Shown here piece after piece: positions 13,088 to 26,413 of a stretch of DNA of 35,474 bases. The notes under the pieces are model-generated. The model saw only the letters and a list, made by a program, of their open reading frames with translations. It searched no databases and had not been told where the DNA came from. Both the position numbers and the translations under genes were made by a program. Origin of the DNA: Myxococcaceae bacterium. Its GTDB lineage: Bacteria > Myxococcota > Myxococcia > Myxococcales > Myxococcaceae. The first letter of the stretch is position 1; every line of letters starts with the position of its first letter. Location: positions 1 to 35,474 of the forward strand of contig JAFGNZ010000159.1 in the NCBI GenBank assembly GCA_016926755.1, written 5' to 3'.

Positions 13088-14476
13088 CTACGGGGCCTCC
13101 GCCTCACCGGCGGGCGGCGGGGCGAACTTCCCGGCGGCCTTGAGCACTCGCAGGGCCGCCAGGGAGGCGTTGAGCGTCTCCCCCACGAAGCCGTTCTCCG
13201 CGGCCGCGAGCGCCGTGTTGGCGTCCGTCACCTCCAGGTAGGTGGCCGTGCCTGCCTTGAAGCTCACGTCCACCAGCCGCTGGCCCTCGCGCGCCAGCCG
13301 GAGCTGCTCCTCAGCCTTGATGCGGTTGGCCCGGGCGCTGGCCAGATCCAGCAGCCCCCGGCGCACCTCGTCCCGAGCGCGGTTCTGCGCGGCGAGCGCG
13401 TTGGCCTTCGCCTCGGCTACCTTGGCGCTGCTCTCCCGCAGGTTCGCCTCCCGCAGGCCGCCGTCCCACAGCGTCCACTGCAGCCCCACGGTGACGAGCC
13501 AGCTGGTGTTGGAGCCGGTGAAGCCCGCCACGTTCGCCCACCGGTAGGCGGCGGACAGGGCCACGGCCGGCGCGTAGCTCCACTTCACCTGTCTGCGCCC
13601 GGCCTCGGCCAGCTCCACGCTCCGCTGGGCCGCCGCCACGTCCGGCCGCTCCAGCGCCGCGGCCTCCAGCTCCTCGATGCCCGCGGGCAGCACGGGCTCC
13701 TCCGGCACCACCACGTCGAAGTCCGCCGGCTCGTTCATCAGCGTGGCCAGCGCCATGAGCGTGCTCTGGTGCGAGTTGCGCGCGCGCAGCAGATCCTGCT
13801 CGGTGCGAGCCCTGTCGATCTGCGCGCGCAGCAGCGCCACCTTGGGCTGGGCGCCCGCGTCGAAGCCCACCTGGGCATCCTTCTCGCGGGCGGCGGACAC
13901 CTCCAGCAGGCGCTCCTGCACGTTGACCGCCTGCTTGAGCCCCGCGGCCCCGAAGTAGAGCTGCGCGGCGGCGAAGAGGATCTCCCGGCGCGCCGCCTCC
14001 ACGTTGAGGGCCACCATGTCCTCGGCGATCCCGGCGCTCTTGATGGCCACGCACAGCGCGGGGGCGATCAGCACCTGGTTGAGCTGCACCTGGGCGCCCA
14101 GCTGGTTGTAGCGCTGGATGGGCGCCTCGATGAAGCCGGTGGGCACCAGGGTGAGGTTGGTAGGCGCGCCCGGAAGATCCGGGGTGGGTTCGCTCGTTGG
14201 CCCGCCCACGTCCCGGATGGCGTAGGCCTGGGGCAGCCGGATGGACGCCTCATCGCTGTTGCGCGTGTAGGAGGCGCCGGCGGTGATCTGGGGCAGGTAG
14301 CCGCTCCACGCCTTGGCGGACAGCTCCTGGGCCTGGGCCAGCCGCGCGCGGGCCGCCTGCAGCTCCAGGCTCTGGGACTCCATGCGGGTGAGCACTTCCT
14401 GGAAGGTCAGCGTCCGCGAGGCGGCGGCGGGCTCCGCGGCCAGGGCGACGAGGGCGACGAGGGTAAGGGGGGTCAT
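13088..14476 (-). CDS. TolC-family outer-membrane efflux channel
   Basis: This 462-residue protein starts with a short signal peptide (cleavage probably after about residue 19). It has the duplicated TolC layout: TLTFQEVLTRMESQSLELQAAR-type helices, a beta segment (SAKAWSGYLPQITAGASY), and a second repeat with YAPAVALSAAYRW and LQWTLWDGGLREANLR near residues 300-350. Long Ala/Glu/Arg helices between these form the periplasmic tunnel in the family. The start has GGAGGGAG five bases upstream. It is last of the regulator, adaptor, pump, channel operon and would form the outer-membrane exit duct. Confidence 0.9.
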   Translation of the reverse strand: MTPLTLVALVALAAEPAAASRTLTFQEVLTRMESQSLELQAARARLAQAQELSAKAWSGYLPQITAGASYTRNSDEASIRLPQAYAIRDVGGPTSEPTPDLPGAPTNLTLVPTGFIEAPIQRYNQLGAQVQLNQVLIAPALCVAIKSAGIAEDMVALNVEAARREILFAAAQLYFGAAGLKQAVNVQERLLEVSAAREKDAQVGFDAGAQPKVALLRAQIDRARTEQDLLRARNSHQSTLMALATLMNEPADFDVVVPEEPVLPAGIEELEAAALERPDVAAAQRSVELAEAGRRQVKWSYAPAVALSAAYRWANVAGFTGSNTSWLVTVGLQWTLWDGGLREANLRESSAKVAEAKANALAAQNRARDEVRRGLLDLASARANRIKAEEQLRLAREGQRLVDVSFKAGTATYLEVTDANTALAAAENGFVGETLNASLAALRVLKAAGKFAPPPAGEAEAP

Positions 14477-14563
14477 GACTCCCTCCGGGACACAGCGAGG
14501 CTCACGGCAAGGTGTTGCGGTTGGAGGCTCATAAGTGGCGGTTTGTCGTGTGAGAGGAGACTG

Positions 14564-14595
14564 CGGGAGGGAGCGGGTACACCGCTCCCCTCCGG
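14564..14595 (-). promoter_or_regulatory. Strong intercistronic stem-loop between the RND pump and tolC
   Basis: GGGAGCGG (14569-14576) and CCGCTCCC (14582-14589) form a perfect 8-bp stem with a GTACA loop. Pairing extends outward by several more bases with one bulge. It lies in the 167-base gap after the pump stop and before the tolC start. No U-tract follows, so it is more likely an mRNA stability or partial-termination element than a full terminator. Confidence 0.45.
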
Positions 14596-14619
14596 GTCGG
14601 AGACCGCGGGTGGCTCGGG

Positions 14620-14637
14620 GCGCGGAGCACTCCGCGC
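14620..14637 (-). promoter_or_regulatory. Second hairpin just after the RND pump stop codon
   Basis: GCGCGGAG and CTCCGCGC form an 8-base inverted repeat around a 2-base centre, seven bases after the pump stop on the minus strand. Together with the hairpin at 14564-14595 it could separate expression of the pump from that of tolC. The role is inferred from position. Confidence 0.35.
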
Positions 14638-14643
14638 CTCGAC

Positions 14644-17745
<3,102 letters not shown>

Positions 17746-17772
17746 GGCGGTATGTCCGTTCGGTCCGCGGAG

Positions 17773-18891
17773 TTACTGCACCACGCTCACGGCGAGCCCC
17801 TCACGCAAGGAGGCGGCGCTCTCCACCACCACCTTGTCCTGGGGCTGCAGGCCGCTGCTCACCTGGGCGAAGCGAGGGGTGACGGGCAGCGCCTGCACGT
17901 CCCGGCGCACCAGCCGCCCGTCCTCGACCACCCACACATAGCTGCCCTTGTCATCCTTGAGCAGGGCCTGGGACGGCACGAAGAGGCCGGCCAGCGCCTC
18001 GCTGCGCGAGAAGTCCAGGTCCGCCAGCGAGCCCGGGCGCAGCACCGTGTCCGGCTTGCCCGTCACATCCGCCAGCACCTCCACGGTGCGGCTTTGCGGG
18101 TCCACCACCGCGCCCACCGTGCGGACGGTGGCCTCGAAGGGGGCGTTGCCGGGGATGACCCGGCCGCTGATCTTCATGCCCTCCTTGAGCGCCCCGGCCA
18201 TGGACTCGGGCACCGGCAGGCGCACCTCCAGTTGGTCCACGTTGGTGACCATGAAGATGGGGGTGGGCGGCATCATCGCCACCGTGTCACCGATGTTCTT
18301 CAGCCGCGCCGTGATCACCCCGTCGAAGGGGGCGCGCAGCGTGTGGTCGCGCAGCATCTCCTGGGCGGAGCGCACCGCCGCCTCGGCCTGGGCGAACCCC
18401 GCGGCGGCCTGGCGCTGGCCCGCCTGCGCCCTGTCCAGCAGCGCCTGCGGAGCGCTGCCGCCCTCGAACAGCTTCTTCGTGCGCTCCAGCTCCGTGGTGG
18501 CGCTGTCCAGCGCGGCGCGGGCCATCTCGCGGGCGGCCTGGGCCTGCTCCACGCCGATGACGATGTTGGAGGTGTCCAGCACCATCAGCGGCGCGCCCTT
18601 CTTCACCCGATCACCCACGTTCGCCAGGTGCTGGGCGATGGTGCCGGTGGCCGGCGCGCTCAGCGTGGCCTCCAGCCGGGCGCGCAGCTGCCCCGTCACC
18701 CGGGTGACGTCCCCCTGCAGCTTGTCCAGGGGCGGCGTCGCGCGGACGCCGAGCGTGGGCTGCCCGCCCGTGGCGCTCGCGCCAGCGGGCAGCTGGGCCT
18801 TGTTGGCCTGGGCTTCGGAGCACCCCATGCCGACCGTGGAGGCCAGGGCGCCAAGGATCAAGAGACGAGTCAGGGAACGAGTGGTCATCAT
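17773..18891 (-). CDS. RND periplasmic adaptor (membrane fusion) lipoprotein
   Basis: This 372-residue HlyD/AcrA-type adaptor has an N-terminal hydrophobic segment ending in GMGC, so Cys24 is a likely lipid anchor although the lipobox is imperfect. Then come the half-lipoyl motif around APATGTIAQHLANVGDRVKK and a helical hairpin (about 110-170). The second lipoyl half follows (RAPFDGVITARLKNIGDTV), and beta-barrel and membrane-proximal parts end near residue 372. It links the inner-membrane pump to the TolC channel. Two adjacent ATG codons exist at 18886-18891; GAGG lies about ten bases before the first. It follows the regulator gene by 24 bases. Confidence 0.92.
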   Translation of the reverse strand: MMTTRSLTRLLILGALASTVGMGCSEAQANKAQLPAGASATGGQPTLGVRATPPLDKLQGDVTRVTGQLRARLEATLSAPATGTIAQHLANVGDRVKKGAPLMVLDTSNIVIGVEQAQAAREMARAALDSATTELERTKKLFEGGSAPQALLDRAQAGQRQAAAGFAQAEAAVRSAQEMLRDHTLRAPFDGVITARLKNIGDTVAMMPPTPIFMVTNVDQLEVRLPVPESMAGALKEGMKISGRVIPGNAPFEATVRTVGAVVDPQSRTVEVLADVTGKPDTVLRPGSLADLDFSRSEALAGLFVPSQALLKDDKGSYVWVVEDGRLVRRDVQALPVTPRFAQVSSGLQPQDKVVVESAASLREGLAVSVVQ

Positions 18892-20973: not shown

Positions 20974-22329
20974 ATGGCCCCTTCGTGGATGCTCCGCCAC
21001 TGCCTCGCGTCCCTTGCCCTGCTCGCGCTCTCGGGGTGCCCGGGGGAAGGCGAGCCACCTCCCTTCATCTGCGTCGATGAGCCTTCCCCCCCGCCGATCT
21101 TATTGTCTCCGCATCCAGCGGCCGTGCGGGTGGGCCAGAAGACCCGCCTGCAGATCGAGGCCCTGCTCTCCGCCAGCTGCGGCGGCACGACCCACACCCG
21201 CCCCACCTCCGTCACGGCCGAGGTCGAAGGCCCGGGGGGCCAGCTGATCGCCAGCCAGATCACGCTGGCCTCGACAGGCGCCACCGCGACCCTCGAGTTC
21301 ACGCCGGAGCGTCCGGGCCCTCACCACATCCTCGTCGCGTTCTCCGAGGTAGGCGGGCTCCACCAGTTCGATCTCCACGCGGCGATGGATCGCTCCTCAG
21401 AGGCTCCCCCCCAGCTCCTCGCCCCGCCATGCCCTTCCCTGGAGCGCACCCTCCAAGGCGCCTGGGTGTGTGCGCCCGAGGTGCTGCGCGGCGACACGTC
21501 CCTGGGGAGCTTCCCCAACTCCCGGATGGCCGTGGCGGGAGATGTGATCTGGGTGGTGCTCGGCACGCGCGTGGAGCGCTATGTCGACACGGGCACGGAG
21601 CTCCTCTTGACGGGATCCGTGACGCACTCGCGCGGTGCCGTCGAATTCCTCCGCGCATCTCCCGACGAGCTGATCGTGCTGCATGGCTCCGCCCTCGCGC
21701 GCTACGCCTTCCAGAACGGCGCCTTGGAGGCCACGGGTGCCCTGGCCTGGAGCCGCCCCACGCTGCCGATCATGCCTGCAGGCCCCCATGGCGTCCTCCT
21801 GCGCGAAGGAGATTGGCTGGCCCTGGGCACCCGGTCCATCGCTGAAGGCATGGCCACCGTCCAGGTGTGCCCGTACGAGCGGGTCGCCGGTACGCTCCAG
21901 CCCACGCAGGAGGTGTGCCGGACGATCCCAGGCGAGATCGCCGGCTTCGAGCCCACGGTGCTCTGGACGAAGGATGTGCCCGTCCCCACCCCCTCGGGTG
22001 GGCAGAGCTGGCTCCTGCGCCGTTGGGAGTGGAGCGGCGGCCAGCTGGTGGAGCAGGGCTCGCTGGTGCTGAACGCCAATGCCGTCGTCCTCGACCGGAC
22101 GGACACGAGCTCCGCCGCCGTTCCCCTCGTCGGCTCCCTGCTCACCACATCCTCGACTCCGCCCATCATCGCCGTCGCGACGTGGTCTCCCCAGCTGCGT
22201 GTGATCCTCCTCGAGTACCTGGATCCCGCGCTGACCGAGGTCCATGCCTCGCCCACCCTCTATTGGACCTTGAACCCTCAGGCGATGGGCCAGGCCACGA
22301 GCGTGCGGCTCAGGCCGCCGCCTCCGTGA
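20974..22329 (+). CDS. Putative lipoprotein of unknown function
   Basis: This 451-residue protein has an N-terminal signal ending in LALSGC, a good lipobox with Cys22, so it is probably anchored in a membrane facing the periplasm or surface. Residues about 40-130 look like an Ig-type beta domain. The remainder is rich in short beta strands with Trp/Gly turns (WVVLGTRVERY, YAFQNGALEATG), suggestive of a beta-propeller. I do not recognise a family. The ATG at 20974 was chosen; a TTG 18 bases upstream and an ATG 15 bases downstream are also possible, and none has a clear ribosome site. Its 3' end overlaps the convergent mvdD-like gene by 20 bases. Confidence 0.7.
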   Translation: MAPSWMLRHCLASLALLALSGCPGEGEPPPFICVDEPSPPPILLSPHPAAVRVGQKTRLQIEALLSASCGGTTHTRPTSVTAEVEGPGGQLIASQITLASTGATATLEFTPERPGPHHILVAFSEVGGLHQFDLHAAMDRSSEAPPQLLAPPCPSLERTLQGAWVCAPEVLRGDTSLGSFPNSRMAVAGDVIWVVLGTRVERYVDTGTELLLTGSVTHSRGAVEFLRASPDELIVLHGSALARYAFQNGALEATGALAWSRPTLPIMPAGPHGVLLREGDWLALGTRSIAEGMATVQVCPYERVAGTLQPTQEVCRTIPGEIAGFEPTVLWTKDVPVPTPSGGQSWLLRRWEWSGGQLVEQGSLVLNANAVVLDRTDTSSAAVPLVGSLLTTSSTPPIIAVATWSPQLRVILLEYLDPALTEVHASPTLYWTLNPQAMGQATSVRLRPPPP

Positions 22330-23317
22330 GGAGCCGGGGGGCTCGCCGGCGTGCCGCGCGCCCGACGAGCACGTCCGCCAGGGCCTCGGCGATGGGCAGT
22401 CCCGGGTACTGCATCAGCCAGGTGAACTCGCCCGCCGGGTTCACCTCGAGGAAGACGTGCCGCCCCTCGGGCGTGACGATGAAGTCGAACGCGCCATAGT
22501 TGAGCCCCAGCGCCTCCATCAGCCCCAGCACCCGAGCCTCCACCGGCTCGGGCAGCGAGTACGGCTGCCACGCGTCGACCAGCGCCAGGCCCTCGCGGCG
22601 CCAGTCATTGCGCGCACGCGGCAGCACCTGCGAGTCGATGGCCGCCGCCATCACCCGATCCCCCACGACCGTCACCCGCAGCTCCAGCGCCTTGGAGATC
22701 CGCTCCTGGAAGGTCATCGGACACAGGTCCAGCCCCTCCAGATCCTCGAGCTCCTCCGCCTCCAGGGGCGTGGTGAACACCACCTGCTCCTGGCCCTGCG
22801 CGTCGTACACGGCGAACGAGGCCATCATCTTCGTCACCACGCCGCCGGGGCAGCTCGCGGCGAAGGCTCGCACAGCCTCCGGATCATTGCTCATCAGCGT
22901 GCGGGGCACCTCCAGCCCCAGCGTGCGGGCCAGCTCGAGCTGCAGCGGCTTGTGCTCCGCGCGCCGCACCTGCTCGATCGCGTCCAGCTGGAAGGCCCCG
23001 AGCGCCGCCAGCATCCCGAACACCATCCGCCGGCTCTCCTCCACCGAGGGCTGACGGAGCTGCGGATCGAGCTCCTGGGGGATGCCTGCCCCCGTGGCGC
23101 TGCGGCGGTACCAGACGGAGGTCACCTCCGCCAGCTCGAGCACCCCCGCGGGTCCGGAGAGCCGCCCACCGCCGGCCTCATCGAGCGTGAGCCGGATCTG
23201 AGTGGGGAACAGATCCGTGTCGAACCGGTAGGCCCGCTCGCCGCGAGCCTCGAGGGCGTGGGCCACGGCGGCAGGCGCCTCGTGGTCGGTGGAGCGCGTC
23301 ACGATGAGGGTCGTCAA
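22310..23317 (-). CDS. mvdD: MvdD-like ATP-grasp ligase (ester-forming graspetide maturase)
   Basis: The protein has 335 residues and a TTG start. The sequence tracks MvdD/MdnC of microviridin clusters: TTLIVTRSTDHEAP at the N-terminus, YRFDTDLFP, SVWYRRSATG, HKPLQLELARTLGLEVP, CPMTFQERISKALELRVTVV, and the metal/ATP-binding end FIVTPEGRHVFLEVNPAGEF. In characterised pathways MvdD/MdnC makes the ester bonds (Thr-Asp, Ser-Glu/Asp) in the KYPSD core. The start is set by AGGAG six bases before TTG (23315-23317); that TTG shares four bases (TTGA) with the mvdC-like stop, so the pair is translationally coupled. The frame is open about 280 bases further upstream but only as antisense-like sequence inside mvdC. 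Confidence 0.93.
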   Translation of the reverse strand: MTTLIVTRSTDHEAPAAVAHALEARGERAYRFDTDLFPTQIRLTLDEAGGGRLSGPAGVLELAEVTSVWYRRSATGAGIPQELDPQLRQPSVEESRRMVFGMLAALGAFQLDAIEQVRRAEHKPLQLELARTLGLEVPRTLMSNDPEAVRAFAASCPGGVVTKMMASFAVYDAQGQEQVVFTTPLEAEELEDLEGLDLCPMTFQERISKALELRVTVVGDRVMAAAIDSQVLPRARNDWRREGLALVDAWQPYSLPEPVEARVLGLMEALGLNYGAFDFIVTPEGRHVFLEVNPAGEFTWLMQYPGLPIAEALADVLVGRAARRRAPRLLTEAAA

Positions 23318-24375: not shown

Positions 24376-24567
24376 CTACTTGCAGTAGCCCTCGTCAGTG
24401 TCCGAGGGGTACTTCAGGGTGAAGAACTCGTCCGAGTCCGAGGGGTACTTCTTCGTCTCGATGGGGGCCCCCCCCGCCGCCTGCTCGAGCTCCTGCGCCT
24501 CCAGCAAGCGGGCGAAGAACGGCTTCTTTCCCTTCTGCTGCTTCTTGTCCTGGGTGTTCTTTTTCAT
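24376..24567 (-). CDS. mdnA: Microviridin-type graspetide precursor peptide with two tandem core motifs
   Basis: This is a 63-residue precursor. Leader residues 16-25 read PFFARLLEAQ, close to the PFFARFLE helix that binds the ATP-grasp enzymes in microviridin precursors. A Lys/Gln-rich head (1-15) precedes it. The tail carries two cores matching TxKYPSDx(E/D)(E/D): TKKYPSDSDE (38-47) and TLKYPSDTDE (50-59), ending GYCK. By analogy each core would form T-D and S-D esters and a K-E amide, giving a caged serine-protease inhibitor. A double glycine (32-33) before the first core could be a processing site. AAGGAGA precedes the ATG. Both ligases follow directly. The final product, its cleavage points and its target protease are not known. 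Confidence 0.93.
   Translation of the reverse strand: MKKNTQDKKQQKGKKPFFARLLEAQELEQAAGGAPIETKKYPSDSDEFFTLKYPSDTDEGYCK
24391..24456 (-). repeat. Tandem duplication of the graspetide core (two copies, 36-base spacing)
   Basis: Copy 1 spans 24427-24456 and copy 2 spans 24391-24420. They share 16 identical bases in a row covering the KYPSD codons. The in-frame 12-codon spacing indicates a core duplication rather than chance. Confidence 0.85.
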
Positions 24568-24581
24568 TCCTGTCTCCTTGT

Positions 24582-25500: not shown

Positions 25501-26091
25501 TCAGAGATTGCCAGCCCGGCCAGGAGGCCAGAAGCGCAGCCAGGCCCGCCCGATGACGCGCTGCTGCGGCAGGAAGCCCCAGTGGTGGGAGTCGCTGCTG
25601 ACGTTGCGGTTGTCTCCGAGGACGTAGAGCATGCCCTCCGGCACGCGGAGCGGGCCGGCGGTGTACCGAGGCGCCTCCGCGACGTAGGGCTCGTGCAGCG
25701 CTTGCCCATCGACGAAGACCTGCCCGCCACGGACTTCCACGCTCTGACCGCCCAGGGCAATCACCCGTTTGACGGCGGCAGGTCCTTCCAGCGCGCCGGG
25801 CCTCCGCGTCTGAGGGGGAAGGTCGAACACGACGATGTCGCCGGGGCGCGGAGGATGAAACCGGTAGGACAGCTTGTCCATCACCAACCGGTCCCCGAAG
25901 ACCAGCGTCGGCGCCATCGAGTCCGTAACGATGACGCGAGGTTGGACGACGAAGCCTCGCAGCAACAACACCAGCACCAGCAGCGCAGCTCCCGCGATGA
26001 GCCGCCCCCACGCCTTCCTCCCCCAGCGGCGCGGTCCCCCCTGGACGAGGACCCCTTCGACCTGCCTCTCCTCCTCAAGTTTTCTTGCCAT
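25501..26091 (-). CDS. lepB: Signal peptidase I
   Basis: This 196-residue S26 family protease has one membrane helix (about 30-48). The nucleophile is Ser58 in TDSMAPT and the general base is Lys108 in AVKRVIALGG. The conserved box GDNRNVSSDSHHWG lies at about 159-172, ending with the family's VIGRAWLRFWP. It removes signal peptides from secreted proteins at the inner membrane. The start at 26089-26091 was preferred because AGGATCAGGG lies just upstream; an ATG 24 bases earlier is possible. It is short compared with enterobacterial LepB (one membrane helix), as is common for extra copies. It is divergent from a secreted Cys-rich peptide gene. Confidence 0.9.
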   Translation of the reverse strand: MARKLEEERQVEGVLVQGGPRRWGRKAWGRLIAGAALLVLVLLLRGFVVQPRVIVTDSMAPTLVFGDRLVMDKLSYRFHPPRPGDIVVFDLPPQTRRPGALEGPAAVKRVIALGGQSVEVRGGQVFVDGQALHEPYVAEAPRYTAGPLRVPEGMLYVLGDNRNVSSDSHHWGFLPQQRVIGRAWLRFWPPGRAGNL

Positions 26092-26191
26092 CCCTGATCC
26101 TGAATGCTCTGACATGGGGTATGGGTGGAATGCTTGAATCCACACGCCATGTCCGTATCGTTCCACCCCGACACGGCAGGAGGAATGTCAC

Positions 26192-26413
26192 ATGAAGAAG
26201 TTCCTGAAGGTAGGGCTGATCGGTCTCGCCCTGGGCGCAGCAGCGGGAGTGGCCTCCGCGACCGTCGGTAGCGAGGAGACCGTCGCCCCCTTCTGCTGCG
26301 ACGACTGTGATCCGGGCTACAACACTTGCATCTCCGGCTGCAGCACCAGCTCCTGCTACGACTCGTGCGAAAGAATCTACGACTCGTGCGTGCTCAGGTG
26401 CATCGACTGCTGA
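26192..26413 (+). CDS. Small secreted ten-cysteine peptide
   Basis: This 73-residue protein has a clear Sec signal (MKKFLKVGLIGLALGAAAG, cleavage after ASA near residue 23). The mature part of about 50 residues has ten cysteines, an even number that could pair fully. It contains two copies of the pattern C-x3-Y-x2-C-x3-C: CDPGYNTCISGC and CERIYDSCVLRC. It also has three C-x3-C pairs, as in helical-hairpin mini-proteins. AGGAGG lies eight bases before the ATG. I do not recognise a family; a periplasmic or extracellular disulfide-rich peptide is all that can be claimed. Confidence 0.8.
   Translation: MKKFLKVGLIGLALGAAAGVASATVGSEETVAPFCCDDCDPGYNTCISGCSTSSCYDSCERIYDSCVLRCIDC

Follow-up and report, generated by a model that had tools for sequence, protein, structure and literature searches.

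The locus described here raises the question of whether one ribosomal peptide with two microviridin-type cores gives rise to a single inhibitor with two heads or to two separate inhibitors. It lies in a window of 35,474 nucleotides (the whole stretch of DNA analysed, contig C245) of a 9.6-Mb host genome in 409 contigs. A preliminary description had assigned this DNA, correctly, to a myxobacterium and had read from it a two-core graspetide precursor of the microviridin type, possibly double-headed, a reading that the profile matches and the ligase pair reported below support. The host very probably belongs to the genus of Hyalangium versicolor; genome G082 is of the same genus as the host, and its precursor is that of Hyalangium versicolor H56D21. 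We consider it probable that this class II locus yields a peptide with two cages, a double-headed and bispecific serine-protease inhibitor that is cut and exported by a C39 exporter. If the product is indeed one piece with two heads, it would provide a short scaffold that is genetically encoded and on which bispecific protease inhibitors could be built, together with a clean test of one versus several molecules for class II precursors that lack internal cleavage sites. As a find the cluster is ordinary, since an existing list of conserved, uncharacterised antiSMASH clusters includes the 'microviridin' type for the related myxobacteria Archangium, Cystobacter and Sorangium (PMC12766979). These are of the same type and from the same myxobacterial group; the passages of that paper considered here name them by type and give neither core counts nor a specificity analysis.

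Precursor, ligases and cluster composition

Translation confirmed the precursor ORF, MKKNTQDKKQQKGKKPFFARLLEAQELEQAAGGAPIETKKYPSDSDEFFTLKYPSDTDEGYCK (63 aa), which reads from 24567 to 24376 (Table 1). Its two cores, beginning at T38 and T50, are twelve residues apart, as the preliminary description had it, although the strand was absent from that account. The precursor scored 39.3 bits against NF033738 (cut-off 26, E 8.7e-10), far above chance, and 35 bits against Pfam Inhibitor_I10 (PF12559, cut-off 21). The core motif of microviridin-type (group 1) graspetides, TxK(Y)PSDx(D/E)(D/E), is matched twice in full (T38-E47 and T50-E59), and each core has every residue needed to form a pair of lactones and a lactam. 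The PFFARLL stretch corresponds to the PFFARFL of microviridin leaders, visible in chain P of 5ig9. Ahead of core 1 stands ELEQAAGG, which most relatives carry as ELEQ(A/V)(A/S/T)GG; with L-12, E-8, L-7, A-4, G-2 and G-1 this leader end fits the C39 peptidase consensus. Two tandem cores thus follow one leader with a double-glycine motif, the arrangement that characterises class II (PMC13039773).

Table 1. Features of the microviridin-type locus, in window coordinates
Feature	Position	Strand	Basis
MvdD/MdnC-like ATP-grasp ligase, 335 aa, predicted two-lactone former	22310..23317	-	TIGR04184, PF21068, 5ig9
Predicted lactam-forming ATP-grasp ligase, MvdC/MdnB-like, 341 aa	23314..24339	-	TIGR04185, PF21068, 7m4s/5ig8
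Class II microviridin-type precursor, two cores	24376..24567	-	translation, NF033738, PF12559, orthologues in relatives
C-terminal tail GYCK, single Cys	24379..24390	-	sequence; position varies in relatives
Core 2 (residues 50-59), TLKYPSDTDE with Leu at x, a P1 of elastase/subtilisin/chymotrypsin type	24391..24420	-	sequence; PMC7823629
Inter-core linker FF, two residues, without protease motif	24421..24426	-	sequence
Core 1 (residues 38-47), TKKYPSDSDE with Lys at x, a P1 of trypsin type	24427..24456	-	sequence; PMC7823629
Double-glycine processing motif ELEQAAGG, residues 26-33	24469..24492	-	sequence; putative cleavage site
Leader helix PFFARLL, residues 16-22, ligase-docking motif	24502..24522	-	likeness to PFFARFL leaders
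Shine-Dalgarno AAGGAG, 6 nt ahead of ATG	24574..24579	-	direct sequence reading

Adjacent MvdC- and MvdD-type ligase genes follow the precursor on the same strand, with TIGR04185 and TIGR04184 as their best NCBIfam matches. The lactam-type ligase scored 417 bits against TIGR04185, slightly below the equivalog cut-off of 425, and the lactone-type ligase 436.7 bits against TIGR04184, slightly below 475. By these scores both are diverged members, and the shortfall is a point against the reading that we prefer. The MvdD pre-ATP-grasp domain (PF21068) was over cut-off in the lactam-type (116.6 bits) and the lactone-type ligase (114.5 bits). The best solved match of the former was AMdnB (7m4s, E 5e-96), followed by MdnB (5ig8), and that of the latter MdnC (5ig9, E 1e-103). 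Moreover, the lactone-type ligase retains the ATP/Mg residues K163, GAFD and FLEVNPAGE; its TTG start overlaps the TGA of the upstream lactam-type gene, which suggests that the two may be translationally coupled.

The locus is a genuine, intact, minimal class II microviridin cluster of three genes, and an ordinary new addition to the known multi-core class. No acetyltransferase, transporter or protease was found in the cluster of precursor and two ligases, whereas an acetyltransferase and an ABC transporter have been described in Microcystis clusters. The C39-peptidase transporter that is common, though not obligatory, in class II is not located inside the cluster. Flanking genes vary between genera, the shared part being only the precursor and the two ligases, and a single genome (G081) has flanking genes in common with the window. 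A larger cluster including the neighbours was rejected because the surrounding genes differ in this way. Searches of plasmid and phage collections with the precursor and the locus returned no match.

Ring pattern, processing and number of products

By analogy with characterised homologues, the leader helix would dock on both ATP-grasp ligases. Two esters in each core would come from the MvdD/MdnC-like enzyme (T38-D44 and S43-D46; T50-D56 and S55-D58); after this its MvdC/MdnB-like partner would add one amide per core (K40-E47 and K52-E59), with six waters lost overall across both cores. An exporter of the C39 (double-glycine) type, whose gene lies at another site of the genome, would cut after GG33 and export one 30-residue peptide, in which Phe-Phe joins two three-ring cages. 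Six-fold dehydrated, this 30-mer has a predicted [M+H]+ of 3366.53 with the Cys reduced; for the full-length precursor the corresponding monoisotopic values are 7093.53 after six dehydrations and 7201.59 without modification. The first head, with Lys as P1, would be directed at trypsin-like targets and the second, with Leu, at elastase-, subtilisin- or chymotrypsin-like ones.

The enzymology of a multi-core precursor has been characterised for the three-core AMdnA of Anabaena sp. PCC 7120 (PMC5934393), which resembles the present system in its PFFAR leader, its several cores and its lactone and lactam ligases (AMdnC and AMdnB, the latter being the solved structure closest to our lactam-type ligase). 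AMdnA differs in having three cores and long spacers with a quasi-core, as against two cores, 63 aa and a two-residue linker here. AMdnC handles each AMdnA core independently (PMC5934393). Moreover, one AMdnA core uses Asp for the second ester: core 3 forms this lactone via Asp95, and mutation of Asp95 abolished exactly that lactone (PMC5934393). The preliminary description had remarked on Asp at the second ester position. The residue is there, but it is neither novel nor unusual, as the published consensus TX1KYPSDX2D/EE/D includes Asp. The MdnA-MdnB-MdnC systems of microviridins J and B (5ig8, 5ig9) share the core motif, the leader helix and the ligase pair; unlike the present precursor, theirs has a single core (class I) and no double-Gly.

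We found a single Peptidase_C39 domain in the host genome, in a 740-aa exporter on contig C5 preceded by an HlyD-type adaptor. Congeners that lack the microviridin locus (G078 and G080, which have neither precursor nor ligase) have this exporter too, and it is therefore not dedicated to the cluster. Two genomes of genus g3 carry a C39 exporter at a distance of 8 kb from the cluster and two of genus g7 at 14-15 kb, the latter 60% identical to the host exporter. The case for a C39 exporter as partner of the cluster is suggestive only, and the linked exporter stays a weak candidate, as C39 exporters also occur in cluster-free genomes. Two other candidates found no support: the tripartite efflux genes at 13088-18891, considered as exporter, encode AcrB/HlyD/OEP-type drug efflux parts and are >5 kb away, and the adjacent signal peptidase at 25501-26166, considered as leader protease, is separated from the cluster by an opposite-strand yebC.

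The same precursor with the same rings could also be cut between the cores, for example at the FF linker, to release two single-headed inhibitors. The class I microviridins known so far work as one cage each, a chymotrypsin-like protease could cleave Phe-Phe, and some class II precursors have double-Gly sites between cores (PMC7823629). However, between the cores of the window precursor there is neither a double-Gly nor any other processing motif in repeat, the inter-core linkers of 24 relatives (2 to 12 residues) have no motif in common, and a dedicated protease would find little space on a linker of two residues. We consider such separation unlikely and favour the single-piece product. Microviridin B remains a low-nM inhibitor of elastase while it carries its entire leader (PMC11672978), so an N-terminal extension is tolerated and the second cage, extended at its N-terminus by the first, should bind. 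That one molecule would carry both activities we infer from the P1-equivalent residues, Lys in one core and Leu in the other, a pairing kept in relatives. Bowman-Birk inhibitors, small plant peptides with two inhibitory loops that often act on trypsin and chymotrypsin, are a functional parallel only: theirs is a disulfide scaffold rather than side-chain ester and amide cages, with no sequence or chemical relation.

Specificity residues and constraint on the cores

Position x of TxK is the specificity (P1) residue; in microviridin J, Arg5 contacts Asp189 in the S1 pocket of trypsin, and exchanges at x switch inhibition, with Arg or Lys directed to trypsin, Leu to elastase and Met to subtilisin (PMC7823629). 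The window precursor has Lys at x in core 1 and Leu in core 2. Among the two-core precursors of relatives, 14/24 have a basic x in core 1, as against 2/24 in core 2 (p 5e-4, Fisher test). One core with Lys or Arg is combined with another with Leu or Met in 15 of the 24, against 7.1 expected by random pairing (p 5e-5). Once the set is collapsed at 80% identity, the count is 11/18, where 5.8 would be expected (p 0.002). The relatedness of the precursors is not fully removed from these tests. In two precursors (L031 and L042, close relatives that count as one event) the order is swapped, with Leu in core 1 and Arg in core 2, so that the pairing is kept; their second core contains KWPSD.

The basic/aliphatic pairing does not occur in the sister clade of precursors, where x is Gln/Gln or mixed, nor in seven two-core precursors of other phyla and a distant Myxococcales MAG. 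Bispecificity would therefore be limited to one lineage, and there is moderate support for the pairing as a feature of that lineage and not of two-core precursors generally. The broader proposal, that Myxococcaceae of this lineage conserve a double-headed, bispecific caged inhibitor with one basic and one aliphatic P1, and that paralogues swap the order of the heads, we put forward tentatively and with slightly less than even confidence.

Both the leader helix and the cores are under purifying selection. The helix is the most conserved stretch of the precursor (pN/pS 0.10), followed by the cores (0.34 and 0.35), as against 0.76 for the N-terminus. Moreover, dN between same-position cores across relatives is 0.12 and 0.11, compared with 0.19-0.22 between the two cores of one precursor. 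Since same-position cores from different species are closer to each other than are both cores of one precursor, the two cores are kept distinct and are not homogenised. These values bear on a further explanation, in which the second core is a spare: full cyclisation or use would be confined to one core, and the other would be a passive duplicate. Such redundancy would fit a congener locus (L104) that is down to one altered core and a PSDL fragment, and the major AMdnC product, which has only one lactone in AMdnA core 1 (PMC5934393). We nevertheless regard a spare core as decidedly improbable, given the equal constraint, the retention of all cyclising residues and the distinct identities of the two cores across genera.

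The GYCK tail with its single Cys had been read correctly, but it is not a conserved feature, the nearest relatives ending in GYCK, DICK, GCAR, GYAR and DFSK. Exactly one Cys follows the leader, at varied positions, in 10 of the 17 precursors of Lys/Leu type and in 0/7 others, a count for which the post-leader stretch is longer in four sequences owing to how GG was located. This excess is weak (p 0.014 in a binomial test with the Cys frequency assumed to be 0.95%). A use of the single Cys in dimerisation or conjugation is possible.

Distribution in relatives and other graspetide loci

We surveyed 145 genomes of the order, with a threshold of E 1e-60 or better for the lactam-type ligase. The precursor was found in 20/145 and the ligase in 22/145, all 20 precursor genomes carrying both. 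The preliminary description had regarded loss of the core motifs in close relatives that keep the ligases as evidence against it. The co-occurrence in 20/20 genomes speaks in its favour; as for the two ligase-only genomes, G051 has a distant (44%) ligase match and in G076 both parts have decayed, with a precursor minus its cores and only one, shortened, ligase. The second locus of Hyalangium versicolor (L104, in G082) retains a ligase beside only one, altered, core (TNKSPSDKED), with the second truncated to PSDL.

Decay of this kind, as in G076, could suggest that the window locus is likewise decayed or silent and its precursor a relic, and a simple scan, a weak method for this organism, found no sigma-70-type promoter. 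Three intact frames, a good ribosome site, tight spacing and purifying selection on the helix and cores stand against this, and we find a relic scarcely credible.

Two cores had been presented as a rarity. Class II is, however, defined by up to five tandem cores (PMC13039773, PMC7823629), and in this lineage two is the norm: of the distinct precursors in relatives, 24 carry exactly two cores and two carry three, while in other genera there are some with at least twelve. Outside the order, named relatives from Planctomycetes, Acidobacteria and cyanobacteria have two to four. As two-core precursors dominate among relatives and multi-core ones also occur outside the order, the two-core layout is ordinary here.

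The arrangement of genes also varied. The two-core precursors L106, L107, L109, L111, L113, L115 and L116 have no adjoining ligase and the ligase pair is elsewhere in the genome, implying that they may be modified in trans; conversely, the ligases of G047 (L049) lack a neighbouring precursor. L015, L023, L025 and L028 are very long precursors, of ~240-300 aa or above, whose T.K(Y/A)PSD cores number at least twelve and lie in Gly-rich spacers, L028 having an additional, longer N-terminal domain.

Lastly, other small ORFs and ligases were seen in the host genome. A 73-aa ORF at 26192-26413 (+) of the window, CCDDCDPGYNTCISGCSTSSCYDSCERIYDSCVLRCIDC, has a signal-peptide-like start and a Cys-rich tail, with no family match in Pfam or NCBIfam. 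Six more graspetide-type ATP-grasp ligases (L003-L008) are nearest to TIGR04187, below cut-off. One of these (L005) is adjoined by a 73-aa ORF with the repeat MRMSYxGDPRDTG, and L004 and L006 by small ORFs with double-Gly leaders.
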